Shown here piece by piece: positions 1-12,035 of a stretch of 64,000 nt of DNA; position 1 is the stretch's first letter, and every line of letters begins with the position of its first letter. Source of the DNA: Micromonospora echinospora (lineage in GTDB: Bacteria; Actinomycetota; Actinomycetes; Mycobacteriales; Micromonosporaceae). A program made the position numbers and the translations under genes. The notes beneath the pieces were generated by a model. It saw only the letters and a list, made by a program, of their open reading frames with translations, made no database searches and was not told where the DNA came from. The DNA lies in contig NZ_JACHJC010000001.1 in NCBI RefSeq assembly GCF_014203425.1, positions 1,984,001 through 2,048,000 on the forward strand. Reading direction: 5' to 3'.

Positions 1-666
1 CTGCGTCCGTTCATGTTCGCCAGCGAGGTCTTCCTCGGTGTGCGCCCGGCCAACGAATACCTCTACTGCGTCATCGCCTCGCCCGCCGGGGCGTACTTCT
101 CCGGTGGGGTGAAGCCGGTGACGGTCTGGGTCTCGCCGGACTACACCCGGGCGGCGCCCGGCGGCACCGGCGCGGCGAAGTGCGGCGGCAACTACGCGGC
201 CTCGCTCGCGGCACAGGCCGAGGCGATCGAGGCCGGCTGCGACCAGGTGGTCTTCCTGGACGCGGTCGAGCGGCGCTACGTCGACGAGCTGGGCGGCATG
301 AACGTCTTCTTCGTCTACGACGACGGCAGCATCGTCACCCCGCCGCTGGGCGGCACGATCCTGCCCGGCATCACCCGCGACGCGATCCTCGCGCTGGCCG
401 CCGAGGCCGGGCACGAGGTGCGGGAGGCGCCGGTCAGCTTCGCCGACTGGCAGACGGACGCGGCCAGCGGGCGACTGCGCGAGGTGTTCGCCTGCGGCAC
501 GGCCGCTGTCGTCACCCCGATCGGCGGCGTGCGCTTCCCGGCGGGCGAGTTCCTCATCGGCGGTGGCGAACCGGGCCGGACCACCATGGCGCTGCGCCAG
601 AAGCTCGTCGACATCCAGCGCGGTCGCGCCGAGGACCCGCACGGCTGGGTCACCCGGGTCATCTGA
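1..666 (+). CDS. ilvE: Branched-chain amino acid aminotransferase, C-terminal part (cut by window edge)
   Basis: Reading frame 1 is open from the first base, so the gene begins before the window; 221 residues are visible. It is a PLP fold-type IV transaminase that interconverts Leu, Ile and Val with their 2-oxo acids in the cytoplasm. Visible hallmarks are the [11 protein letters not shown] segment, [10 protein letters not shown] and the [15 protein letters not shown] loop, all in the order expected of IlvE. The catalytic lysine should lie in the part before CGGNYAAS. It belongs with cimA and leuCD found further along. The family call is secure; only the N terminus is missing. Confidence 0.95.
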
Positions 667-723
667 CCGTCCCGCCCGCGTGGTGGTCGAGGAGTCCGCT
701 CCCCGACCACCACGCGGCGGGGG

Positions 724-1488
724 TCAGTCCAGCAGGTGGGTGCGCAGGGACTCCAACTGCGCCTCGGTGACGCCGGCGTGGGTCAGATAGCCCTCGACCG
801 AGCCGTAGCCGGCGCGCAGCTCGGCCAGGAACAGCTCCATCGTCTCGGCGGGCGAGTCCAGGAACGGCGGCGGCGGCTCCTCCGCGTCCGGCAGCGTGGC
901 CCGTACCCACTCGGCGAAGCGCTGCGACGCGGCGCTGCTGAGCGCGTAGTCGGCGACCACGTCCTCGTCGGGCACCCCGAGCACGGCCAGCGTGAGCGCG
1001 CAGACGATGCCGGTGCGGTCCTTGCCGGCGACGCAGTGCACCACCACCGGGGCGTTGGCGCTGTCGGCGATCAGTCCGACCGCCTCGGCGAGCCCGGCCG
1101 TGCCGGTGCGTGCCAGGTCGGCGTACCGGTCGGCCAGGTAGCGGGCCAGGCTGACGCCGGAGGCGTCGAACCGGTTCGCGCCCCAGTCGGCGTGCTCGGG
1201 GTGGATGTGCCGGTAGGTGAGCCCGTCGTAGGCGGGCACCCGCCCGTCGCGTTCCACCTCGGTGGGGCGGCGCAGGTCGATCACGGTACGGATGCCGAGC
1301 GCGGTGAACGCCGCCCGGTCGCTCTCGTCGATGCGGTGCAGCGAGTCGGAACGGTAGAGCCGGCCGCGCCGTACGCCGCGCCCGTCGCCGGCGGCGTACC
1401 CGCCGACCTCACGGAAGTTGAACAGGGTGGGGAAGGGGCTCTGCGGGGCGTCCACATCCGACACGGTAACGGCCGACGGGGCGTTCAC
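724..1488 (-). CDS. Tyrosine/serine protein phosphatase family protein
   Basis: A 254-residue protein of the Y_phosphatase3 (dual-specificity-like) family. The P-loop HCVAGKDRTG matches HCX5R, giving the catalytic Cys and Arg, and the N terminus carries the family's NFREVGGY and GRLYRSDSL segments. The frame is open well upstream, but family homology begins just after the GTG at 1488, so that start is used; GTG codons at 1464 and 1455 are alternatives. A GGCGGG stretch lies just before the 1488 start. It lies 26 bp downstream of the PRC-barrel gene on the same strand, a likely two-gene unit. The substrate cannot be told. Confidence 0.85.
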   Translation of the reverse strand: MNAPSAVTVSDVDAPQSPFPTLFNFREVGGYAAGDGRGVRRGRLYRSDSLHRIDESDRAAFTALGIRTVIDLRRPTEVERDGRVPAYDGLTYRHIHPEHADWGANRFDASGVSLARYLADRYADLARTGTAGLAEAVGLIADSANAPVVVHCVAGKDRTGIVCALTLAVLGVPDEDVVADYALSSAASQRFAEWVRATLPDAEEPPPPFLDSPAETMELFLAELRAGYGSVEGYLTHAGVTEAQLESLRTHLLD

Positions 1489-1514
1489 ACGTCCCGCCGG
1501 CCGTCGCCGAGGTG

Positions 1515-1979
1515 TCAGATGCGCGGCGGTACGTCCGGTGGCAGCGCCGAGTGGCTCTCGCCGTAGTAGCCGCCGAGCCGGTCCCGGTAGCCCGGGTCGG
1601 CGTGGCTGGCCTCGTCGAATTCCGGTGCGGCCTTGATCTGGTCCTTGTCCCGGTCGACGTGCACGGTACGGGCGTCGTGGTCGACGAGGTTCACGGTGCC
1701 GGCCGGGAGCATCACCTTCTTGCCGAAGATCCACGGCCCGGTGTCCACGACCAGGTAGCTGTCGTCCACCTCGTGGCTCGCCCGGTCGATCTTGCCGATG
1801 GCGCCGTCGGTGGCCTCGACCTTGTAGCCGGTCAGGTCGGCGCTCGCCACGCCCGCCTCGTCGCGGTAGCGCCACGGGTCGAAGGCGCCCGCCGGGGCTC
1901 CACCGGCGACCGCGCCCCGGCCGTCGTCGAGGATCGGCTCGGTGCCGCCGTGCGTGGCGCGCGGGTCCAGTCCGTCCAT
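1515..1979 (-). CDS. PRC-barrel domain protein
   Basis: A 154-residue soluble protein. Residues about 45-115 form a PRC-barrel: the segment LTGYKVEATDGAIGKID is the typical opening strand pair, followed by WIFGKKVMLPAGTV. The rest is charged and probably flexible, ending in a Pro-rich tail. No membrane segment or signal peptide is visible. Many actinobacterial proteins of this type are associated with stress or storage, but no function can be assigned from sequence. It is read in the same direction as the following phosphatase gene. Confidence 0.8.
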   Translation of the reverse strand: MDGLDPRATHGGTEPILDDGRGAVAGGAPAGAFDPWRYRDEAGVASADLTGYKVEATDGAIGKIDRASHEVDDSYLVVDTGPWIFGKKVMLPAGTVNLVDHDARTVHVDRDKDQIKAAPEFDEASHADPGYRDRLGGYYGESHSALPPDVPPRI

Positions 1980-2098
1980 GTGCCGCCTCCCGTCCCGAGG
2001 GCCGCGGCCGTCGCGGCGCCGTCATCAGTCGGGTGGGTTACCCACGCTGTCCGGGGGTCAACCGCCGAAGGGCAGGCTGCCGGCCCGCCGACGCCGAA

Positions 2099-2128
2099 GG
2101 GCCGGCGCCACGGTGGTGGCGCCGGCCC
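2099..2128 (-). terminator. Strong hairpin downstream of ahpD
   Basis: Thirteen-base perfect arms (2099-2111 and 2116-2128) around a GGTG loop, GC-rich and without a long T-run. It lies 52 bp past the ahpD stop and is best read as the terminator of the ahpCD operon, possibly also working from the opposite side. Confidence 0.75.
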
Positions 2129-2179
2129 CTCGGGACGTCGGCCCGCGCGGCGCCGCTCGGGCGCGTTCGGCCCGGTGGA

Positions 2180-2710
2180 TCAGGCCAGCGCGGCCTCCGC
2201 GTCCAGGGTCACCGCGGCGGCATGTACGACGGCGGCGATCCGCAGCCCCTCGTGCACCTGCTCACGGCTGAACCCGGCGGCGCGCAGCGTCTTCTCGTGC
2301 GACTCCAGGCAGACGCCGCAGCCGGTGATCGCCGAGACGGCGAGGCACCACAGCTCGAAGTCGGTCTTCTCCACGCCGGGGCGGGCGATGATCTGCATCC
2401 GCAGCCGGGCCGGCAGCGACGCGTACTGCTCGTCGCCGATCAGGTGCTTGGCCCGGTAGTAGACGTTGTTCATCGCCATGACCGCCGCCGCGCCCTTTGC
2501 CGCCTCGACCGCCTCGGGCGTGAGGTGACCTGCCGCCTCCGCGGCGATCTCCCGCAGCACCACCGGGTTGCGGGCCGCCACCGCGCAGGCCAGGGCGGTG
2601 CCCCAGGCCTGCTCCGGCTTCAGCGTCGAGGTGGTGATGGTGGAGCCGAGGTTGAGCCGGATGTCCTTGGCGTACTCCGGCAGGCCCGCCTTGATCGCGT
2701 CCAGACCCAT
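2180..2710 (-). CDS. ahpD: Alkyl hydroperoxidase AhpD
   Basis: A 176-residue AhpD of the carboxymuconolactone-decarboxylase-like fold. In mycobacteria AhpD recycles AhpC through a thiol relay linked to lipoamide (known biology). The active-site motif CGVCLESH (CxxC followed three residues later by His) is present, with the family's conserved Glu upstream. The ATG at 2710 (MGLDAIKAGL) is chosen because it matches family N termini and follows the ahpC stop by two bases; the frame opens further up but inside ahpC. Translational coupling with ahpC is likely. Confidence 0.95.
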   Translation of the reverse strand: MGLDAIKAGLPEYAKDIRLNLGSTITTSTLKPEQAWGTALACAVAARNPVVLREIAAEAAGHLTPEAVEAAKGAAAVMAMNNVYYRAKHLIGDEQYASLPARLRMQIIARPGVEKTDFELWCLAVSAITGCGVCLESHEKTLRAAGFSREQVHEGLRIAAVVHAAAVTLDAEAALA

Positions 2711-2712
2711 GG

Positions 2713-3273
2713 TCAGGCCCCGGCGCCGGCGAGGAGCGCGTTGGCGTCGAGCGTCGCGCCGCCGGAGTTCCAGTTGCACGGGCACAGCTCGTCGGTCTGG
2801 AGGGCGTCGAGCACCCGCAGCACCTCGGAGACGTTACGGCCGACCGAACCGGCGGTCACCATGACGAACTGGATCTCGTTGTTCGGGTCCACGATGAAGG
2901 TGGCCCGCTGGGCGACACCGTCTTCGCCGAGCACGCCGCAGGCGGAGGTCAGCTCACGCTTGATGTCGCTGAGCATCGGGAAGGGCAGCTCGCGCAGGTC
3001 CGGGTGGTCCTTGCGCCAGGCGTAGTGGACGAACTCGTTGTCGACGGAGACGCCGAGCACCTGGGCGTCGCGGTCGGCGAACTCGCCGTTGAGGCGACCG
3101 AACTCGGCGATCTCGGTGGGGCAGACGAAGGTGAAGTCCTTCGGCCAGAAGAACACGACGCGCCACTGGCCCTCGTGGGACTTGTGGTTGATCGTCTCGA
3201 ACGCCTTGTCGGCGTCGAGCGACACGCAGGCGGTGAGTTCGTACTCGGGGAAGTGGTCACCGACAGTGAGCAC
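2713..3273 (-). CDS. ahpC: Peroxiredoxin AhpC
   Basis: A 186-residue typical 2-Cys peroxiredoxin reducing peroxides and peroxynitrite. The peroxidatic cysteine is in FTFVCPTEIAEFG (about residue 60). The C terminus has ELCPCNW, a CxC resembling the three-cysteine mycobacterial AhpC. It starts at GTG 3273, preceded by an excellent AAGGAGG. It is first gene of the ahpC-ahpD operon. No oxyR gene is adjacent, unlike many mycobacteria, so its regulator is not visible here. Confidence 0.96.
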   Translation of the reverse strand: MLTVGDHFPEYELTACVSLDADKAFETINHKSHEGQWRVVFFWPKDFTFVCPTEIAEFGRLNGEFADRDAQVLGVSVDNEFVHYAWRKDHPDLRELPFPMLSDIKRELTSACGVLGEDGVAQRATFIVDPNNEIQFVMVTAGSVGRNVSEVLRVLDALQTDELCPCNWNSGGATLDANALLAGAGA

Positions 3274-3463
3274 GGGTCCTCCTTGAGCGTGGCCGGGCAG
3301 GGTGGCCGGGCCAGTAACTGGATCGGTTCAAGATTCTTCCGCAGTCCTGTTTGTGCTCCCAGGGGGCGGTGTCCGGGTGTGAAGGCGATCACCAGCCCCG
3401 CGATCGTCCCGGAATATGGGTTTCGCCTCCCAAAACCGAGTGCGAGGTGGCAGAGTACGGGTC

Positions 3464-3496
3464 GTGACCAGCTTCGTCCTGATCATTAGCAGCTAG
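3464..3496 (+). CDS. cimA leader peptide (VTSFVLIISS)
   Basis: A 10-codon reading frame GTG...TAG with a run of Val-Leu-Ile-Ile codons in its second half. It ends 29 bp before a strong intrinsic terminator that itself lies just upstream of cimA. The composition matches the end products that would be sensed (Ile, Val, Leu). No close ribosome-binding site is visible (a GAGG lies 16 bp away), so leaderless translation is likely. This is the classic layout of a ribosome-mediated attenuator. Confidence 0.75.
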   Translation: MTSFVLIISS

Positions 3497-3554
3497 CGCG
3501 CCGGCCCTCCCTCGCCGAGCGCGCAGACCTCCCGCATCCGCGGGGGGTCTTTTT
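3496..3554 (+). promoter_or_regulatory. Transcription attenuator in front of cimA
   Basis: Two consecutive hairpins follow the leader peptide. The first pairs 3496-3505 with 3514-3524 around one bulged A. The second is a 10-bp stem, 3526-3535 with 3540-3549, loop ATCC, followed by TTTTTGTTT, a textbook intrinsic terminator. The CCCTCC loop of hairpin one could compete for the G-run of the terminator, giving an antiterminator when a ribosome stalls on the Val/Leu/Ile codons. The pairings are seen directly; the switching is inferred. Confidence 0.75.
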
Positions 3555-3591
3555 GTTTGCCCCCCAGGACGGACACGAGAAGAGGACTCCG

Positions 3592-5190
3592 ATGACCTTC
3601 CAGGTGTACGACACGACGCTGCGCGACGGCGCCCAGCGCGAAGGACTCACGTACTCGGTGGTCGACAAGCTGGCGGTGGCCCGCCTGCTCGACGACCTCG
3701 GGGTCGGCTTCATCGAGGGGGGCTGGCCGGGCGCGGTGCCGAAGGACACCGAGTTCTTCCGCCGGGCCCGCACCGAGCTGGAACTGCGGCACGCGATCCT
3801 GGTCGCCTTCGGCGCCACCCGCAAGGCCGGCCTGGCGGTCGAGGACGACCCGCAGGTGCGCGGGCTGCTCGACGCGCAGACCCCGGCCGTCGCCCTGGTC
3901 GCCAAGGCGGACCTGCGGCACGTGGAACGCGCGCTGCGCACCACCGCCGAGGAGAACCTGGCGATGATCCGCGACACCGTGTCGTACCTGGTGGCGCAGG
4001 GCCGGCGGGTCTTCGTCGACGGGGAGCACTGCTACGACGGGTTCCGCTTCGACCCGGGCTACACCACCGCCGTGGCGGAGACCGCGCTGGCCGCCGGCGC
4101 CGAGCGCTTCGTGCTCTGCGACACCAACGGCGGCATGCTGCCCTCCCAGGTCACCGCCGTGATCGAAGGGCTGGTGGCGCGCACCGGGATCGCGCCGGAA
4201 CTGCTCGGCATGCACGCGCAGAACGACACCGCCTGCGCGGTCGCCAACACCATCGCCGCGGTCGAGGCCGGCGTCCGCCACGTGCAGGGCACCGCCAACG
4301 GGTACGGCGAGCGCCCCGGCAACGCCGACATCTTCGCGATCGTCGCCAATCTTCAGCTCAAACTGGGCATGCCCGTCCTACCGGAGGGCTGCCTGGAACA
4401 GATGGTGCGGGTCTCGCACGCCATCGCCGAGATCGCCAACATCGCCCCCGACACCCACCAGGCCTACGTCGGGGCCGCCGCCTTCGCTCACAAGGCGGGG
4501 CTGCACGCGAGCGCGATCAAGGTCGACCCGTTGCTCTACAACCACGTGGAACCCACCGTGGTGGGCAACGACATGCGGATCCTGGTGACCGAGATGGCCG
4601 GCCGGGCCAGCATCGAGCTCAAGAGCCGTGAGCTCGGTCTGGACCTGGCCGGCCATCCGGACACCCTGTCCCGGGTCACCGGGCGGGTCAAGGAGCTGGA
4701 GGCCGACGGGTGGTCGTTCGAGGCCGCCGACGCCTCGTTCGAACTGCTGGTCCGCTCGGAGCTGCCGGGCGCGGCGCCGGTCCGGCCGTTCACGCTGGAG
4801 TCGTACCGGGTGCTGGTCGAGCACCGCGAGGACGGCGCAGTGGTCTCCGAGGCCACCGTGAAGATCCGGGTACGCGGCGAACGGGTGATCGCCACCGCCG
4901 AGGGCAACGGCCCGGTCAACGCGCTGGACGAGGCGCTGCGGGTGGGCCTGGCGCGGCACTACCCGGAACTGCGCGAATTCGAGCTGGCCGACTACAAGGT
5001 CCGCATCCTGGAGGGAAGCCACGGCACCGGCGCGGTGACGCGGGTGCTCGTGGAGACCGCCGGGGCCGGTCGCGACTGGACCACTGTGGGCGTGCACCCG
5101 AACGTCGTCGAGGCCAGCTGGGTCGCGCTCGTCGACGCCCTCACCTACGGCCTGGACCGGGCCCGTGTGCCGGGCGGGAGCGCGGCCTGA
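3592..5190 (+). CDS. cimA: Citramalate synthase
   Basis: A 532-residue enzyme condensing pyruvate and acetyl-CoA to citramalate, the threonine-independent route to 2-oxobutyrate and isoleucine. Residues about 3-270 form the pyruvate-carboxyltransferase TIM barrel opening with YDTTLRDGAQREGL; HMHAQND-like metal ligands are visible as MHAQND. The C-terminal quarter is a LeuA-type dimerisation and feedback domain (from about residue 405). The length and the QREGL segment favour CimA over 2-isopropylmalate synthase. The ATG at 3592 has GAGAAGAGG before it. It is preceded by a leader-peptide attenuator and converges with an EEP gene one base after its stop. Confidence 0.9.
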   Translation: MTFQVYDTTLRDGAQREGLTYSVVDKLAVARLLDDLGVGFIEGGWPGAVPKDTEFFRRARTELELRHAILVAFGATRKAGLAVEDDPQVRGLLDAQTPAVALVAKADLRHVERALRTTAEENLAMIRDTVSYLVAQGRRVFVDGEHCYDGFRFDPGYTTAVAETALAAGAERFVLCDTNGGMLPSQVTAVIEGLVARTGIAPELLGMHAQNDTACAVANTIAAVEAGVRHVQGTANGYGERPGNADIFAIVANLQLKLGMPVLPEGCLEQMVRVSHAIAEIANIAPDTHQAYVGAAAFAHKAGLHASAIKVDPLLYNHVEPTVVGNDMRILVTEMAGRASIELKSRELGLDLAGHPDTLSRVTGRVKELEADGWSFEAADASFELLVRSELPGAAPVRPFTLESYRVLVEHREDGAVVSEATVKIRVRGERVIATAEGNGPVNALDEALRVGLARHYPELREFELADYKVRILEGSHGTGAVTRVLVETAGAGRDWTTVGVHPNVVEASWVALVDALTYGLDRARVPGGSAA

Positions 5191-5191
5191 C

Positions 5192-6184
5192 TCACCCGGC
5201 CGGCAGGCGCAGCTCGGCCAGCAGCGCGCGGTGATCGCTGCCCGGCACCGGGAAGGTGCCGGCGGCGCGCACCGCGATGCGCCGGTCCACCAGGACGTGG
5301 TCGATGGTGACCGGCGGGATCGGGTCGCCGTCGTACGGGCCCCAGGTGCCGCCGAACCCGGCCCCGGCCGCGTCCGCCGCGTCGGTGTAGCCGGTGGCGA
5401 TCAGGCCCCGCAGCGCCGCGTGGTCGAGCGTCGCGTTGAAGTCCCCGGCCAGCACGCTCAGCCCGCCGTCCGGGGTGGCCGGCGGCTGGGCGCGCTGGTC
5501 GGTCCACCAGTCCGGCACCACGTCGACCGCGTACGGCGCGGCCGGGTGCGCCGATTCCACCCGTAACGGCGGCGCCCCCGGCACCGTCACCGTCGCGTAC
5601 GCCTGGGTGAAGAAGAACCCCTTGTTGCGGCGGTGCCCGGTGTCGCGCAGCGGGTGGCGGGCGTACACGCCGGAGCCGGTGGAGCCGACCTCGGGGCTCA
5701 GCGACCGGTGCGGCAGCAGCGTGGCCAGGCCGAGCCGGTCCAGCTCGGTCGCGAGCGCCGGGGTGAGTTCCTGCACCGTGAGCACGTCCACCCGGCGCGT
5801 CCGGACCAGGCCGACCAGTCCCGCCGCGTCGGCCGAGCCGAGGCGCAGGTTGGCGGTGAGCAGCCGCAGCGTCGGCCCGTCGGCCGGGGGACCGGTGTCG
5901 GGAATCACCCGGGGCGCCACCGCGCCGATCAGCGACAGCGCGGCGAGGGCCGCGACCACCGCCGGGGCCCGGCGCCGCAGGGCCAGCGCCGACACCGCCA
6001 CGACCGGGGCCACCGCGGCGACGTACGGCGTGAAGGCGATCGCCAGCACCAGCGGACCGCGTTCCAGCCCGGCCAGGCGGACGAGCGCCCAGGCGGCGAC
6101 CGGCGCGACTGCCAGCCAGCACGCGGTGGTGGCCCAGAGTCCGCCCCGGGTGCCGCCCCGGGACAGGTCCGGTGCCGTGATCAT
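5192..6184 (-). CDS. Membrane-anchored endonuclease/exonuclease/phosphatase (EEP) family protein
   Basis: A 330-residue protein. About residues 12-95 hold three hydrophobic segments; the rest, from TLRLLTANLRLG, is an EEP (DNase I-like) domain. Catalytic landmarks are TANLR, VQEL, GDFNATLDH, TIDHVLV and the final GSDHRALL. The active domain probably faces outside the cell. The ATG at 6184 is chosen; the longer frame adds 43 residues of non-hydrophobic sequence absent from the family. Substrate (nucleic acid, phospholipid or phosphate ester) cannot be told. A second, larger EEP membrane protein lies at 21727-23658. Confidence 0.82.
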   Translation of the reverse strand: MITAPDLSRGGTRGGLWATTACWLAVAPVAAWALVRLAGLERGPLVLAIAFTPYVAAVAPVVAVSALALRRRAPAVVAALAALSLIGAVAPRVIPDTGPPADGPTLRLLTANLRLGSADAAGLVGLVRTRRVDVLTVQELTPALATELDRLGLATLLPHRSLSPEVGSTGSGVYARHPLRDTGHRRNKGFFFTQAYATVTVPGAPPLRVESAHPAAPYAVDVVPDWWTDQRAQPPATPDGGLSVLAGDFNATLDHAALRGLIATGYTDAADAAGAGFGGTWGPYDGDPIPPVTIDHVLVDRRIAVRAAGTFPVPGSDHRALLAELRLPAG

Positions 6185-6299
6185 GGTCGTCAGGCTACCC
6201 GGCGCCGCGCCGCCGCGATGCCCGGCGAAACAATTTCGGGAATGCTCGTCCGCAATTTCTGAGCAGCTTTTCGATCGACCGGACACGCAATATGAGCTA

Positions 6300-6329
6300 T
6301 TGACCGCCTGCATTTCCCGGTGCTACGTT
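6300..6329 (+). promoter_or_regulatory. Candidate promoter for the secreted protein at 6464
   Basis: TTGACC (6300-6305), an 18-bp spacer and TACGTT (6324-6329) resemble a vegetative sigma-factor promoter. It would leave a leader of about 130 bases before the ATG at 6464. The surrounding 6185-6463 interval is less GC-rich than average. Confidence 0.45.
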
Positions 6330-6463
6330 CCCCCTGGTTGAGACGTCGCGACTCTCTGTAGTAAGGCCAGCTCACGAGCGGTGCGCTCCCCGGCGGATAC
6401 CCGATGATCCGCAATTTGACGCGCGCAGTCGCCGTATCACCACGGTTTACCAAGGGAGAACTC

Positions 6464-6985
6464 ATGGCCACATTCTTCAAGCGAAAGGCGACGGTGGTGG
6501 CGCTCGCCGCGCTGTCCCTCACCCTGGCCGGTGGAGGGATTGCCGCGGCCGCCCAGTCGGAGGCGCGGCCCCAGCCCGGCGCCCGGCACAGCACCGCGCA
6601 GCCGCCGGTGACCGCCGCCGAGCGGCAGGCCGCCCGTGCCGCCATGCGCGCCACGCTGGCCCCGCCGGCCCCTGGCCAGGTCGCCTGGGCGGTCGTGTCG
6701 GCCAACGGGACGCTGCTGCAGCACTCCGGCAACGTGGTGTCCTCGCTCCGGTTCGCACCCGGGCCGGGCGTGTCCGCCGGGCAGTACCAGGTGCTGTTCG
6801 ACTACGACGTGAGGCAGAAGTCGTACCACGTGTCCATCGGCACGAACACTTCGGCCGACATCCCGCCGGGCGGCGAGGTGTCGGCCGCGCCGCGCACGCT
6901 GACCCCGAACGCGGTCTTCGTGCAGACCCGCAACTCCGCCGGTGGCTTCGCCGACCGGCCGTTCCACATCCTGGTCGCCAACTGA
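6464..6985 (+). CDS. Secreted protein of unknown function
   Basis: A 173-residue protein starting with a clear Sec signal peptide (basic MATFFKRKA, hydrophobic core, likely cleavage after AAAA around residue 29). The mature part has a Gln/Pro-rich linker and then a roughly 120-residue globular beta-rich region beginning VAWAVVSANGTLLQHSG, reminiscent of short exported actinobacterial proteins with tandem beta segments. No catalytic motif or cysteine is evident. The ATG has AAGGGAGAA upstream and is closely followed by a strong terminator, so it is monocistronic. I do not recognise the family. Confidence 0.8.
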   Translation: MATFFKRKATVVALAALSLTLAGGGIAAAAQSEARPQPGARHSTAQPPVTAAERQAARAAMRATLAPPAPGQVAWAVVSANGTLLQHSGNVVSSLRFAPGPGVSAGQYQVLFDYDVRQKSYHVSIGTNTSADIPPGGEVSAAPRTLTPNAVFVQTRNSAGGFADRPFHILVAN

Positions 6986-7001
6986 CCCGTCCGGCCGCGC
7001 G

Positions 7002-7027
7002 CCGGCCCTCGCTCCGGCGAGGGCCGG
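7002..7027 (+). terminator. Intrinsic hairpin after the secreted protein gene
   Basis: Perfect 11-bp arms (7002-7012 and 7017-7027) closed by a TCCG tetraloop, 17 bp after the stop codon. The T-run is absent, as is usual for actinobacterial hairpin terminators. Confidence 0.7.
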
Positions 7028-7177
7028 TGTCGTGTTCCGTCCCGGTCCGGCCCGCGCCGCGACGGTTCGCGCCGTTGCCGCCCGATCGGGGAGATGCTGC
7101 CCGTCCGGTTCGGCCACTGCCCCTCCGGCGCCGATAATCCGACGTTTGTCGCCGGTCCGGCACGGGAAGCAAGCACC

Positions 7178-8227
7178 GTGACGGACATCTCGGACACCCT
7201 GGCCAGCGTGCCCAGCCTGGTCGATGCCGACGCGAGCGGCGTCGAGCTGGAACAGACCCTCGTCGAGGTCAAACGCGTGATCGTCGGGCAGGATCGGCTC
7301 GTCGACCGCCTGCTCACCGCCCTCATCGCCAACGGTCACTGCCTGCTGGAGGGCGTACCGGGAGTGGCCAAGACGCTCGCGGCGCAGACGCTCGCCACAG
7401 TGGTCAGCGGCACGTTCTCCCGGATCCAGTTCACGCCCGACCTGGTGCCCTCCGACATCGTCGGCACCCGCATCTACCGCGCCTCGACCGAGCAGTTCGA
7501 CGTGGAGCTGGGCCCGATCATGGCGAACCTCGTGCTCGCCGACGAGATCAACCGGGCTCCGGCCAAGGTGCAGTCGGCGCTGCTGGAGGCGATGGCCGAA
7601 GGGCAGGTCTCGATCGGCGGGCGGAGCTGGCCGGTGCCGGAGCCGTTCCTGGTCCTGGCCACCCAGAACCCGATCGAGTCCGAGGGCGTCTACCAGCTCC
7701 CCGAGGCGCAGCGCGACCGCTTCCTCATGAAGGTCGTGGTCGACTATCCGAGCGACGCCGACGAGCTGGCCATCCTCTACCGGATGAGCACCGAGCGCCC
7801 CACCGCCAGCACGGTGCTCGACCCGACCCGGCTGCGTGACCTCCAGCGCCGCGCCACCGACGTCTTCGTCCACCACGCGCTCGCCGAGTACGTGGTCCGC
7901 CTCATCCTCGCCACCCGGGACCCGGAACGCTTCGGCATGCCCGACATCGCGCCCCTGCTGGCGTACGGGGCCAGCCCTCGGGCCACGCTCGGCCTGGTGG
8001 CGGCCGCCCGCGCGCAGGCGCTCATCCACGGCCGGGACTACGTGCTCCCCGAGGACATCCGGGACCTGGCGGTGGACGTGCTGGCGCACCGGCTCGTGCT
8101 CACCTTCGACGCGGTCGCCGACGGGATCTCCGGCGAGGACGTGGTGCGCCGGGTGATCGAGGCGGTGCCGCCGCCCCGGCTGGTGAACGGGCCCACCGAG
8201 GCGGCGCCGGACCTGGCGGCGGCATGA
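7178..8227 (+). CDS. MoxR-family AAA+ ATPase
   Basis: A 349-residue AAA+ ATPase, thought to act as a chaperone for VWA-domain partners. Walker A is GVPGVAKT (about residue 60), Walker B is LVLADEINRA, sensor 1 is ATQNP, and the lid domain follows. The GTG at 7178 gives the family's usual N terminus; the frame opens further upstream without homology. A GATAAT hexamer at 7133-7138 may be its -10 element. It is the first gene of a tightly coupled operon with DUF58 and VWA genes, the standard MoxR-DUF58-BatA arrangement. Confidence 0.93.
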   Translation: MTDISDTLASVPSLVDADASGVELEQTLVEVKRVIVGQDRLVDRLLTALIANGHCLLEGVPGVAKTLAAQTLATVVSGTFSRIQFTPDLVPSDIVGTRIYRASTEQFDVELGPIMANLVLADEINRAPAKVQSALLEAMAEGQVSIGGRSWPVPEPFLVLATQNPIESEGVYQLPEAQRDRFLMKVVVDYPSDADELAILYRMSTERPTASTVLDPTRLRDLQRRATDVFVHHALAEYVVRLILATRDPERFGMPDIAPLLAYGASPRATLGLVAAARAQALIHGRDYVLPEDIRDLAVDVLAHRLVLTFDAVADGISGEDVVRRVIEAVPPPRLVNGPTEAAPDLAAA

Positions 8228-9240
8228 CCGGCGCGGCCGAGCCCGGGCTGACCGACCTCGCGCCGGACCAGCGGCTGCGCCGGCTGGAGCTGACAGTGAC
8301 CCGGCGGCTCGACGGCCTGCTGCACGGCCGGTACCGGGGCCTGCTGCCCGGACCGGGCAGCGAGGCCGCCGGCAGCCGGGAGTACCGCCCCGGTGAGGAC
8401 GAGGTACGCCGGATGGACTGGGCGGTCACCGCCCGGACCACGGTGCCGCACGTCCGCCAGGTCGACGCGGACCGGGAACTGACCACCTGGCTGCTCGTCG
8501 ACGCCAGCCCCAGCATGGAGTACGGCACCTCCACACTGGACAAACGGGAGCTGGCGGTGGCCGCGGTGGCCGCGATCGGCTTCCTCACCGCCGGAGTCGG
8601 CAACCGGCTCGGCGCGCAGGTGCTCACGCCCGACGGGCTGCGCCGCTTTCCGGCCCGCAGCGGGCGTACCCATCTGCTCGGGCTGCTCCGTGCGCTGCTC
8701 CGCGCTCCGCGTACCGACGACGGGCGGGACCCGGGCGGCGCGGCCGCGGCCGGCGCACGCCCGCCGGCCGCGGGGCCGGGCCTGGCCGACGGGCTGGACG
8801 GTCTCCAGCGCGTCGCCACCCGGCGCGGGCTCGTGGTGATCGTCTCCGATTTCCTCGACGAGCTGCCCGACGACCCGGACGCCGCGCCACCGCCCTGGGC
8901 GGCCGCGCTGCGCCGCCTCGCGGTACGGCACCAGGTGCTCGCGGTCGAGGTGACCGACCCGCGTGAGCTGGAGCTGCCCGACGTCGGGCTGATCACGCTC
9001 GTCGACCCGGAGAGCGGTCGGCACCGCGAGGTGTGGACCGGCGACCCCGACCTGCGCGAGCGGTACGCGCGCGCCGCCGCCGAGCAGCGCGAGCAGGTAC
9101 GCGACACGCTGCGCCGGGCCGGCGCCACCCACATGGCGCTGCGCACCGACCGGGACTGGTGCGCGGACGTGGTCCGGCACGTGCACGAGCAGCGCCGGCT
9201 GGCCACAGTGCCGGCCGCCGCCCGCGGAGGTGTCGCATGA
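8224..9240 (+). CDS. DUF58 domain protein
   Basis: A 338-residue soluble DUF58 protein. The signature region is the GSREYRPGEDEVRRMDWAVT block near residue 55, followed by a VWA-like segment with LLVDASPSMEYG, a MIDAS-type DxSxS motif that could bind a metal. Its ATG overlaps the MoxR stop by four bases (ATGA), so it is translationally coupled. DUF58 proteins are probable adaptors or substrates of MoxR ATPases; their precise role is unknown. Confidence 0.9.
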   Translation: MTGAAEPGLTDLAPDQRLRRLELTVTRRLDGLLHGRYRGLLPGPGSEAAGSREYRPGEDEVRRMDWAVTARTTVPHVRQVDADRELTTWLLVDASPSMEYGTSTLDKRELAVAAVAAIGFLTAGVGNRLGAQVLTPDGLRRFPARSGRTHLLGLLRALLRAPRTDDGRDPGGAAAAGARPPAAGPGLADGLDGLQRVATRRGLVVIVSDFLDELPDDPDAAPPPWAAALRRLAVRHQVLAVEVTDPRELELPDVGLITLVDPESGRHREVWTGDPDLRERYARAAAEQREQVRDTLRRAGATHMALRTDRDWCADVVRHVHEQRRLATVPAAARGGVA

Positions 9241-10196
9241 CCTGGCAGTCACCCGCCCGCCTCTGGCTGCTGCTCGCCGTCGTCGCGCTCGTCGCCGGTT
9301 ATCTGGTGCTGCAACGGCGGCAGAGCCGGTACGCGGTGCGCTTCACCAACCTGCGCCTGCTGGACCGGGTCGCCCCGCGCCGCCCGGCCTGGCGGCGGCA
9401 CGTCCCGGCGGGCCTGTTCCTCGCCATGCTGGCGCTGCTCGTGGTCGGGTTCGCCCGCCCCGAGGCGGAGGTGCGGGTCCCCCGGGAGCGGGCCACTGTG
9501 ATGGTGGCGGTCGACGTCTCCACCTCCATGCTCGCCGGTGACGTGGACCCGGACCGGCTGACAGCGGCCAAGGACGCCGGCCGCCGGTTCGTCGACGGGC
9601 TGCCGGACGAGTTCAACGTCGGCCTCGTCGCGTTCGCCGGCAGCGCCGCGGTGCTGGTGCCGCCGAGCACCGACCGGGAGGCGCTGCACGACGGAATCGA
9701 GCGGCTGGCCGAGGGCATCACCGGCGTGCAGGGCACAGCGATCGGCGAGGCGATAAGCACCTCGCTCGGCGCGGTCAAGAGCCTTGACGCCACCGCCGCG
9801 AAGGACCCGCCGCCGGCCCGGATCATCATCCTCTCCGACGGCGCGAACACCTCCGGGATGGACCCGATCGAGGCCGCCGACCAGGCCGTCGCCGCCAAGG
9901 TGCCGGTGCACACGATCTCCTTCGGCACGCCCGGTGGTTCGGTCGACCGGGGCGGCCGGGCGATCCAGGTGCCGGTGGACGGGCAGACGCTGCGGGCGGT
10001 CGCCGAGCAGACCGGTGGCGGCTTCCACGAGGCGTCCACGACCGCCGAACTGAAGGACGTCTACGAGGACATCGGCACCTCCGTCGGCTACCGCACCGAA
10101 CGGCAGGACATCTCGGCCCGCTTCATCGGCCTCGGGCTGGTCCTGGCGATGGGCGCCGCCGCCGGCTCGCTGCGGTGGTTCTCCCGCCTGCCCTGA
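9237..10196 (+). CDS. VWA-domain membrane protein (BatA-like)
   Basis: A 319-residue protein with two N-terminal membrane helices (about residues 7-24 and 58-78), an extracytoplasmic or cytoplasmic VWA domain carrying the MIDAS motif DVSTSM, and a C-terminal helix near residue 295. The ATG at 9237 overlaps the DUF58 stop by four bases; the frame extends further upstream but only as antisense-like Arg-rich sequence. It completes the MoxR-DUF58-VWA operon, probably involved in assembling envelope complexes. A second VWA gene, common in such operons, is absent; a secreted-type protease follows instead. Confidence 0.9.
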   Translation: MTWQSPARLWLLLAVVALVAGYLVLQRRQSRYAVRFTNLRLLDRVAPRRPAWRRHVPAGLFLAMLALLVVGFARPEAEVRVPRERATVMVAVDVSTSMLAGDVDPDRLTAAKDAGRRFVDGLPDEFNVGLVAFAGSAAVLVPPSTDREALHDGIERLAEGITGVQGTAIGEAISTSLGAVKSLDATAAKDPPPARIIILSDGANTSGMDPIEAADQAVAAKVPVHTISFGTPGGSVDRGGRAIQVPVDGQTLRAVAEQTGGGFHEASTTAELKDVYEDIGTSVGYRTERQDISARFIGLGLVLAMGAAAGSLRWFSRLP

Positions 10197-10241
10197 CCCG
10201 CACCACCACCGGACGACGGCACGACACGTGAGGAGCCAGGC

Positions 10242-11102
10242 ATGGCAGTGCAGACCGGACTCGGCGAGCCACGCGGTCCGTGGTTCGTCTCGCCGGAGCT
10301 GGACCCGGACGGGCGCGGCTACCGGGACGTACCCGGAGGCGGGCCGGACGGGGGACGCCGGAGCCTACGGCACCGGCTGCTGAGCGTGGCGGCGGTGGTG
10401 GCGCTCTCCACCGTCTCCGGCGCGGCGGCCGGCACCTGGGCGGCCGATCACGGCTCGCCGGGACCGACAGCGGCGTCCGCCGCTCCGGTGCCGGCGGAAC
10501 TGGTCACCGCCGCCGGCAAGACGGTGCCCGGCGTGGTCTCGGTGATGGTCGGGGGCCGCTCCGGCGCGTCCGCGTCCGGCTCCGGCTTCGCCATCGACAA
10601 CGAGCAGCACATCGTCACCAACGACCACATCCTGGCCCGGGGCGGCTCGGGCACGGTGACCGTGGAGACCTCGGACGGGCGTCGCTTCCCCGCCGAGGTG
10701 GTGGGCCGGGAGCCGGGCAGCGACCTCGCCGTGCTCAAGGTGCCCGCGTCGGCCGGGCTGCCGCCGCTGCCGCTGGCCAAGGCGAACTCGACCCGGGTGG
10801 GCGAGCCGGTGCTCGCGGTCGGGTCGCCGCTCGGGCTGGCCGGCACGGTCACCGCCGGTATCGTCAGCGCGCTCAACCGGCAGGTCCGGATCGGCAACGG
10901 CCGGCACACGGCGGTGCAGACCGACGCCTCCATCAACCCGGGCAACTCCGGCGGGCCGCTGGTGAACGCGCGCGGCGAGGTGGTCGGCGTGAACACCGCC
11001 ATCGCCACCATCGACGGCAACGGGTCCATCGGCATCGGCTTCGCCATCCCGATCGACCAGGTCCAGCAGACCGCCGACACCATCATCGGGCGGGGCGGCT
11101 GA
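10242..11102 (+). CDS. Trypsin-like serine protease (S1C/HtrA type, no PDZ)
   Basis: A 286-residue protein with a cytoplasmic tail, one membrane helix (about 46-66) and an extracellular chymotrypsin-fold domain. The triad is visible: His in IVTNDHIL, Asp in GSDLAVLKV and Ser in GNSGGPL. Unlike HtrA/DegP it ends right after the protease domain, with no PDZ. A GAGG lies 10 bp before the ATG. It follows the VWA gene by 45 bp and may be co-transcribed with the MoxR operon. Role inferred: envelope protein quality control. Confidence 0.9.
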   Translation: MAVQTGLGEPRGPWFVSPELDPDGRGYRDVPGGGPDGGRRSLRHRLLSVAAVVALSTVSGAAAGTWAADHGSPGPTAASAAPVPAELVTAAGKTVPGVVSVMVGGRSGASASGSGFAIDNEQHIVTNDHILARGGSGTVTVETSDGRRFPAEVVGREPGSDLAVLKVPASAGLPPLPLAKANSTRVGEPVLAVGSPLGLAGTVTAGIVSALNRQVRIGNGRHTAVQTDASINPGNSGGPLVNARGEVVGVNTAIATIDGNGSIGIGFAIPIDQVQQTADTIIGRGG

Positions 11103-11107
11103 GCCGT

Positions 11108-11127
11108 CGCGCGGGCCGCCCCGCGCG
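11108..11127 (+). terminator. GC-rich hairpin after the S1C protease gene
   Basis: Eight-base perfect arms (11108-11115, 11120-11127) with a CCGC loop directly after the stop codon; no T-run. Probably ends the MoxR-to-protease transcript. Confidence 0.5.
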
Positions 11128-11254
11128 GGCCGACCTGACGCCCCGCGCGGCGCTGACCTGCACAAGCGCCGCAAGGTCAGTGCGAACTGTCGGATATCCG
11201 GCATGGGATCATTGGGGCATAGAAATATTACGCTGAGTATGAATACTGGCGGAG

Positions 11255-11551
11255 GTGGAGCAAGCTGTCATTGCGGCCCTCCTCCTGGTGGGCCTGATCA
11301 TCGGCGTCGGTGTCGGCGCGTCCTACGCGCGTGCGAAGCGTGGCTGGACGGACTACCAGACGATCCGGACCAGCGTGCCGGGCGCCCGGCGCAACGCCTG
11401 GCTCGCGATCCGCGGCGTGGTCGTCAAGCTCGCCGTGATCGCCCTGCTGCTGGTCGGCGCGGCGGCGTACGCGGCCTCCGGCGGCGGCGAGGAACGGGCC
11501 GGTCCCACACCGAGCGCGACCCCCACCCCGACTCACCGCCCCGGGCGCTAG
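11255..11551 (+). CDS. Small two-helix membrane protein
   Basis: A 98-residue protein with hydrophobic segments at about 4-22 and 51-72 separated by a basic loop, and a Ser/Thr/Pro tail. It starts at GTG 11255 with GGCGGAG just upstream. An AT-rich stretch (GTATGAAT region, 11237-11244) immediately before could hold a -10 element. The stop is nine bases before arfB, which suggests co-transcription. I do not recognise a family. Confidence 0.65.
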   Translation: MEQAVIAALLLVGLIIGVGVGASYARAKRGWTDYQTIRTSVPGARRNAWLAIRGVVVKLAVIALLLVGAAAYAASGGGEERAGPTPSATPTPTHRPGR

Positions 11552-11560
11552 CCTCGGGGA

Positions 11561-11986
11561 GTGGACGACGGACTGCGGGTGACCGACCGGCTCGTGGTGC
11601 CCGCCGCCGAGCTGCGGGAACGGTTCTCCCGGTCGTCCGGGCCCGGCGGGCAGGGAGTGAACACCACCGACTCGCGGGTGGAGCTGAGCTTCGACCTGGG
11701 CGGCTCGCCGAGCGTGCCGGAGGCGCTGCGGGAACGGGCGCTGGCCCGGCTCGCCGGACGCCTGGTCGACGGCGTGCTGACCGTGACCGCCAGTGAGCAC
11801 CGCGCGCAACTGGCCAACCGGGAGGCCGCCCGGGCACGGATGGCCGCGCTGCTGCGCGAGGCGGTCGCGCCGCCGCCGAAGCCACGTCGCCCGACCCGCC
11901 CGTCGCGCGGCGCCAAGGAACGCCGCCTGGCCGAGAAGAAGCGCCAGTCCCAGCGCAAACGCGACCGCCGGGTGGACGGCGACTGA
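11561..11986 (+). CDS. arfB: Alternative ribosome-rescue factor ArfB (peptidyl-tRNA hydrolase)
   Basis: A 141-residue class I release-factor-like protein. The catalytic GGQ motif is in SSGPGGQGVNTTDSRVEL, and the C terminus is the expected Lys/Arg-rich tail (residues about 105-141) that enters the empty mRNA channel of stalled ribosomes. There is no codon-recognition domain, which separates it from PrfA/PrfB. It starts at GTG 11561. It hydrolyses peptidyl-tRNA on non-stop ribosomes (known for the family). Confidence 0.93.
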   Translation: MDDGLRVTDRLVVPAAELRERFSRSSGPGGQGVNTTDSRVELSFDLGGSPSVPEALRERALARLAGRLVDGVLTVTASEHRAQLANREAARARMAALLREAVAPPPKPRRPTRPSRGAKERRLAEKKRQSQRKRDRRVDGD

Positions 11987-12035
11987 CCGAAAATATGTTG
12001 AGCCGCCACGCGCGCCGCCCGGAGAATTTCGCCAC

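Follow-up and report, generated by a model that had tools for sequence, protein, structure and literature searches.

The 64,000-nucleotide stretch of Micromonospora echinospora DNA analyzed here (the window) carries, upstream of the citramalate synthase gene cimA, a predicted ribosome-mediated transcription attenuator. We hold with great confidence that attenuation at this site would respond to isoleucine, and we consider it highly probable that the whole explanation applies, namely a ribosome-mediated attenuator that makes cimA responsive to charged isoleucine tRNA. Strong support comes from conservation of the leader reading frame, the use of the rare AUU codon and the exchange of control codons before other genes. 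A preliminary description had proposed ribosome-mediated attenuation with isoleucine-branch control at this site, and the reading frame, the Ile codons and the codon exchange support that proposal.

Layout of the cimA Upstream Region

The features of the locus are as follows.

3448–3456, + strand: extended –10-like element TGGCAGAGT, 7 nt 5' of the leader start codon (pattern TGN[CTG]ANNNT)
3464–3496, + strand: leader open reading frame (ORF), GTG start, 10 codons encoding VTSFVLIISS, TAG stop at 3494–3496; read directly from the sequence, frame kept in relatives
3482–3487, + strand: control codons ATC ATT (Ile-Ile), matching the in-frame Ile of relatives at most 21 nt 5' of P1
3496–3524, + strand: hairpin P1, 10 bp with one bulged A at 3518, the proposed antiterminator; from folding and covariation
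3525–3550, + strand: intrinsic terminator stem-loop, 11 bp, loop ATCC, abutting P1 without a gap; from folding and covariation
3551–3558, + strand: T-run of the terminator; from the sequence
3592–5190, + strand: cimA, citramalate synthase, the putative controlled gene (TIGR00977; coding 3592–5187 plus stop)

The leader reads GTG ACC AGC TTC GTC CTG ATC ATT AGC AGC TAG (3464–3496), and P1 begins at the G of the stop codon, which is its first paired base. The terminator stem-loop is directly followed by TTTTGTTTG. Direct reading and folding confirmed the leader peptide VTSFVLIISS, the hairpin, the terminator with its T-run and the downstream cimA gene, all given in the preliminary description. 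Its "perfect 10-bp terminator" was not quite right, since this stem has 11 bp, one of which is G-U. Compared with dinucleotide shuffles, the two hairpins gave a z score of –6.1 (0 of 200 shuffles equally stable), and the leader together with the hairpins gave –4.2.

The cimA product scored 593.8 bits against TIGR00977 (citramalate synthase, cut-off 450). Divergent genes 5' of the element encode an AhpD-family protein (above cut-off) and an AhpC-like peroxiredoxin (under the cut-off of every model listed). An Rfam scan of window positions 1–12000 at E up to 1 returned no family match in the element region (riboswitch, T-box, ilvB-OMG or others), and the element in 10 relatives gave zero Rfam matches at E up to 0.1.

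Distribution across Micromonosporaceae and the Class

The preliminary description had called for an alignment of cimA upstream regions in Micromonosporaceae. A family sample of 170 upstream regions was chosen by cimA alone, comprising 80 loci, 30 regions from a family search that found cimA in 147 of 150 genomes, and 60 stretches taken from 59 of 117 further cimA genomes spread over genera; some of these genomes probably belong to the same species. We used 27 of the 170 regions to build a covariance model, R1; it matched 169 of the 170, with the window standing for L081. The element also reaches far beyond this family. The sole region without the element lies upstream of a second cimA-like gene of G009 (L170). 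Within the M. echinospora genome itself, R1 matched at cimA only.

At E up to 0.001, R1 matched 182 of 296 class genomes, in 83 of 114 genera, including at least one false match (G214, loci L300 and L306, a bidirectional terminator without a leader). cimA itself was present (E up to 1e-90) in 236 of the 296. Element and cimA occurred together in 178 genomes, a count that also includes G214; 58 had cimA alone, 4 the element alone and 56 neither (Fisher p = 1.9e-23, with relatedness ignored). Co-occurrence does not equal adjacency, as the match in the 11 such genomes of family f19 precedes an ilvA-like gene wherever this was checked (8 of the 11). In the four element-only genomes, it precedes ilvB. 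The 58 of 236 cimA-bearing genomes without an element match count against our reading.

Reading of class loci placed the element before cimA in 79 of 86 cases. These were 27 of 27 at L175–L201 and 52 of 59 further loci hand-picked for diversity (L202, L204–L261). In the other seven, the downstream gene was ilvA-like in 3, ilvB in 2 and a gene for a small unassigned protein in 2. We also read 20 cimA upstream regions from genomes with no match or a match elsewhere; 3 held a weak, diverged element and 17 held none. As R1 contains the Ile codon columns, class-wide matches are biased toward Ile, and the family set is free of this bias. Short antisense matches to the terminator palindrome were removed, fifteen from alignment A2 and one from alignment A6. 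By these comparisons, the element is a class-wide, though not universal, putative isoleucine-reading attenuator.

Leader Reading Frame and Control Codons

Leader starts were assigned by a rule blind to Ile codons, namely TGN[CTG]ANNNT followed by the first start codon 4–13 nt downstream. This fixed pattern found no –10 box and start in 18 of 255 aligned elements and found both in 237, which gave 212 distinct elements after removal of 25 duplicates. In 198 of the 212, the –10-like box lies 6–8 nt from the start codon. This is the spacing that a leaderless transcript would show, and the leader is therefore probably translated leaderless, with transcription starting at or beside the GTG.

An Ile codon at most 21 nt before P1 was found in the leader frame in 210 of the 212 elements; the two alternative frames gave 1 and 7. 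Among 27 clusters below 75% identity, the corresponding counts were 26, 0 and 2. The preliminary description had made its proposal depend on conservation of the frame and its Ile, Val or Leu codons in relatives, and this conservation is clear. A conserved short in-frame leader ORF, as expected of an attenuator, thus lies upstream of cimA. L152 was scored as an Ile miss because an earlier start codon was picked, and Ile-Ile is present there when read by eye; L207 is a true non-Ile element and lies before ilvB.

In 208 of 212 elements, the leader has between 8 and 18 codons. The end of the last Ile codon lies 5, 6 or 8 nt from P1 in 199 of 210. The position of the stop codon varies by lineage; it is at the foot of P1 in most elements and inside the P1 hairpin in 30 of 212. 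At L077, L079 and L146 and in genera g4 and g11 (L159–L167, L169), the stop has been lost or moved and the frame continues into the P1 hairpin; the same loci keep P1, the terminator and the Ile codon or codons. Genus g11 has Met-Ile where others have Ile-Ile.

An in-frame Ile at the fixed place is present in 134 of 135 distinct family leaders, with two or three Ile codons in 126; the single leader without Ile is the start-picking error at L152. In 105 of the 134, Leu stands two codons ahead of the last Ile, and in 60 Val stands three codons ahead of it. Only Ile is fixed. Of the Val-Leu-Ile-Ile run stressed in the preliminary description, the Ile codons are conserved in relatives, while Val and Leu ahead of the Ile pair are common but not fixed.

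Codon choice in the leaders is also unusual. AUU accounts for 122 of 132 leader Ile codons at L001–L080 (leaders passing the start rule), compared with 17 of 1207 (1.4%) in the cimA genes of the same loci. Across all 212 elements, AUU makes up 337 of 423 leader Ile codons. This excess over the cimA genes suggests that AUU is under selection, perhaps for slow decoding or for an unstructured region.

Control Codons before Other Genes

To the class loci, we added a rescan with R1 of 11 genomes (with several matches or no cimA), 35 genomes of family f19 and 3 of genus g58. Control codons before P1, read by rule, were Ile at cimA in 66 of 66 leaders and Ile at threonine ammonia-lyase-like (ilvA) genes in 20 of 20. 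At ilvB, Val was found in 10 of 10 leaders, all with GTA, and Leu as well in 8. Leu was found at leuA (2 of 2) and at leuS (2 of 2). The control codons therefore match the pathway end product at cimA, ilvA-like genes, ilvB, leuA and leuS, as looked for in an attenuator. Because the codons track the downstream gene, the ribosome appears to be the reader, and the device seems to be re-addressed by its codons.

Other BCAA codons also occur, and these were counted against the pattern. Of the 66 cimA leaders, 19 contain Leu and 15 contain Val; of the 20 ilvA leaders, 11 contain Leu and 5 contain Val. Ile codons appear elsewhere in 4 of 10 ilvB, 1 of 2 leuA and 1 of 2 leuS leaders. Independence of the swap is limited, as the ilvA cases come from one family and the leuA and leuS cases from one genus; the ilvB cases span six families. 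Where scanned, ilvB, leuA and leuS scored above curated cut-offs. For the ilvA-like proteins, threonine ammonia-lyase models were the best matches, with scores under the cut-offs of these models. The ilvA downstream gene was checked in 15 of 20 cases, and L321, L324, L327, L328 and L329 were assigned by family and similar leader. By the rule, no start was picked at L176, no –10 box was found at L313, L314 and L316, and very short starts were picked at L321 and L326.

Read by eye, the same layout recurs in the M. echinospora genome upstream of ilvB, some 11 kb 5' of the window start (L333, 1171–1268). Its 11-codon leader ORF ends in Arg-Val-Leu-Thr, with codons GTA CTT ACC and a stop. A hairpin starts in the stop codon and a terminator abuts it; the cimA model R1 misses this locus. 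GTA is a rare valine codon in GC-rich genomes, and its presence in all 10 ilvB leaders parallels AUU at cimA.

Family f19 (L268–L270, L313–L332) has the element before an ilvA-like gene, the other route to 2-oxobutyrate, and the element was not found in the f19 cimA upstream regions that were read. Those regions (L272–L279, L287–L290) hold a distinct conserved GC-rich block, which at L272 reads GGCGGCGAACCCGTC...GTCGCGCG...ACCGGGCGCGTG, with variants elsewhere. It gave zero Rfam matches at E up to 0.1 in nine loci and is possibly another regulatory RNA. L264 and L265 (G250, G331) carry a second copy of the element, with codons Ile-Ile-Ile or Leu-Val-Ile-Ile, before a protein of about 105 residues that has no Pfam or NCBIfam match and looks ACT-like by eye.

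Covariation and Abutment of the Hairpins

Alignment A5, comprising 67 class-wide cimA elements fitted to the model, contains 98.3% standard pairs. Two-sided changes were found in 90 cells, compared with 21 in shuffles (sd 5; reached in 0 of 500), and shifting the pairing partners abolished pairing. Weaker measures were closer to shuffles, with 9 pairs showing two-sided change against 6.8 (reached by 31 of 500) and 22 further pair types against 20.3 (91 of 500). In P1, two of six modeled pairs show two-sided change (7 and 19 cells) and three are invariant. In the terminator, seven of eleven pairs do. The MAFFT alignment A1 gave 97.2% pairs, with 8 pairs showing two-sided change and 0 of 500 shuffles reaching this. 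An intrinsic terminator that covaries in relatives is thus present between leader and gene (3525–3558), as expected of an attenuator.

By model placement, the linker between P1 and the terminator is 0 nt in 250 of 253 elements, a count that omits L209 and L223 (gaps at anchor columns). A helix of at least 6 bp abuts the terminator in 91% of elements. The same is seen in 23% of shuffled GC-rich sequences, and abutment by itself therefore carries little weight. In 14 of 66 class elements the terminator lacks its outer A-U pair, which makes the linker effectively longer there.

P1 and the terminator can fold together without conflict. We scored six candidate pairings (leader or P1 strands with the terminator arms, and leader with P1; pseudoknots and overlaps of 2–3 nt lay outside the score) in 27 diverse representatives, and their mean strength was not above shuffles. 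The shared arm and mutually exclusive stems of a classical trp-type attenuator were thus not found among these six pairings. The strong first hairpin of the preliminary description is present and stable, but a classical antiterminator role for it gained no support from the tested terminator pairings. Several single folds paired the bases 5' of the stop with GUUGCC 3' of the T-run. An extension of P1 into the terminator foot was also considered and, by eye, was not general.

Proposed Mechanism and Alternatives

The leader, its frame and Ile codons, the geometry, the covarying stems, the terminator and the downstream cimA are seen in the sequence itself. From these we infer a leaderless start, stalling, the direction of the switch and the effect of abutment. 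Transcription would begin at or near the GTG, and a ribosome would load on the leaderless end. With enough isoleucine, the ribosome would reach the stop codon with its leading edge over about 11 nt of the P1 5' arm; P1 would be blocked and the terminator would end transcription. With isoleucine short, the ribosome would wait at the Ile codons, leaving P1 free or largely free, and the formed P1 would favor read-through into cimA.

Ribosome geometry was computed with a footprint reaching 15 nt past the first base of the codon in the P site. A ribosome whose A site holds the first Ile codon overlaps P1 by at most 2 nt in 206 of 210 elements, and in 145 of them not at all. When the last Ile codon occupies the A site, the overlap is 2 nt in 138 of 210 elements and 4–5 nt in 61, which was counted against the mechanism. 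When the stop codon occupies it, the overlap is at least 8 nt in all 210.

The required sign, with cimA on when isoleucine is short, together with this geometry makes P1 the likely antiterminating structure, a role that we consider reasonably probable. How P1 would counter the terminator is the weakest step of the mechanism. Because the stems abut without shared sequence, steric abutment is proposed, in which the P1 helix joined to the terminator foot would hinder closure of the basal pairs inside the RNA exit channel. Abutment as the means of antitermination is credible, though somewhat more open to doubt than to trust. More speculatively, cimA, ilvA, ilvB, leuA and leuS of Actinomycetes might share one BCAA attenuator design that has no overlapping antiterminator, acts by steric abutment of a ribosome-gated hairpin and is re-addressed by two or three codons.

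The main rival to abutment is a hidden short overlap. The element would then be a classical trp-type attenuator whose short or pseudoknotted shared-arm antiterminator was missed, comparable to the GCC trinucleotide of C. glutamicum ilvBNC. Such designs have been modeled in related bacteria: passages of PMC11857589 place the C. glutamicum antiterminator hairpin just before the terminator with a 3-nt overlap, and passages of PMC13236596 describe mutually exclusive hairpins at M. tuberculosis ilvB1, where a ribosome positioned at the stop masks the antiterminator. The C-rich P1 loop of Micromonospora could, by eye, pair with the terminator G-run. This attractive pairing is however weaker than shuffles, and the C-rich loop is lost in other genera (by eye). 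The scored pairings and the missing overlap between stems in nearly all elements also argue against a shared arm, and we regard it as unlikely, though deserving of weight.

Alternatively, P1 could be only a pausing or spacing hairpin, acting in ribosome-polymerase coupling or in shielding the terminator, which would itself be autonomous or set by ribosome distance. The conflict-free folding of P1 with the terminator fits this, as does the reported repression of termination at lambda tR2 when it lies close behind a translated gene (parts of PMC4824070). Yet the distance from the last Ile codon to P1 stays nearly fixed while leader length varies, which points to P1 itself as the likely target. 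Control by ribosome proximity would also mean read-through at plentiful isoleucine, the wrong sign for a biosynthetic gene. We consider a mere spacing role rather improbable. A constitutive terminator or a protein- or metabolite-binding RNA with an incidental reading frame would agree with the covariation of both stems and recalls the LEU elements upstream of leuA, once attributed to a binding protein (parts of PMC1262725), but frame conservation, AUU against its 1.4% background and the codon swap across five genes make it very improbable.

Comparison with Known Systems

If the attenuator operates as proposed, the entry step of the citramalate route would be under isoleucine-specific control in much of a bacterial class. 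The natural codon swap across five genes argues strongly, on comparative grounds, that the ribosome is the sensor. The element is absent from Rfam and can be annotated by a covariance model. Possible uses may lie in isoleucine and polyketide-precursor engineering.

The preliminary description had called such control at cimA little described, and a search of open-licence PMC papers in which no cimA attenuator was recognised agrees with this. PMC4833913 does not mention cimA or citramalate. Seliverstov et al. (2005) cover ilvB, leuA, leuS, trp and cys leaders and ileS T-boxes, and the portions of that article at hand name no cimA or ilvA element, with 0 occurrences of "citramalate synthase" or "cimA" (PMC1262725). 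The S. lividans reannotation gives eight leader peptides, and cimA is not among these in the sections available (PMC8079986). Narunsky et al. describe ilvB-II and re-read the ilvB-OMG and ilvB motifs, in the passages concerned (PMC10272879). The cimA attenuator would thus be a variant on known actinobacterial BCAA attenuators, apparently new at cimA.

In the E. coli trp, his and ilvGMEDA attenuators, as proposed at cimA, leader codons specify the end product and ribosome position sets termination. There, antiterminator and terminator share an arm and an untranslated leader leads to termination. At cimA, in contrast, a shared arm was not found, and an untranslated leader should, if the steric-abutment design is true, lead to read-through, contrary to the trp attenuator.

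The closest relatives are the actinobacterial ilvB and ilvBNC attenuators (Corynebacterium ilvB-II motif, M. tuberculosis ilvB1, Streptomyces ilvL), which, as far as described in the source passages, have in common with the cimA element a short BCAA-rich leader ORF, a hairpin near the stop and a terminator; cimA is not named in those passages. Their leaders are leaderless in several cases, as proposed at cimA. The cimA element differs in the gene controlled, in its Ile codons and in that a shared antiterminator arm was not found. The M. tuberculosis ilvB1 model, as given in part of PMC13236596, follows a ribosome logic like that proposed at cimA. In the C. glutamicum ilvBNC model, adjacent hairpins share three bases (excerpts of PMC11857589), whereas no sharing was seen between the cimA stems.

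The LEU element of leuA and the trp and leuS attenuators resemble the cimA element in a leader peptide with codons for the pathway product, according to portions of PMC1262725. Unlike the cimA element, LEU is a pseudoknot with a base stem to the Shine-Dalgarno box, and trp and leuS are described there with antiterminator and terminator hairpins. Changes of candidate control codons in the S. coelicolor ilvB leader were reported in the same text to be without effect, which we count against our reading. An old puzzle, that of actinobacterial BCAA leaders and terminators without a clear antiterminator and of codon mutations that appeared ineffective, now becomes directly testable with short constructs through the natural codon swap.
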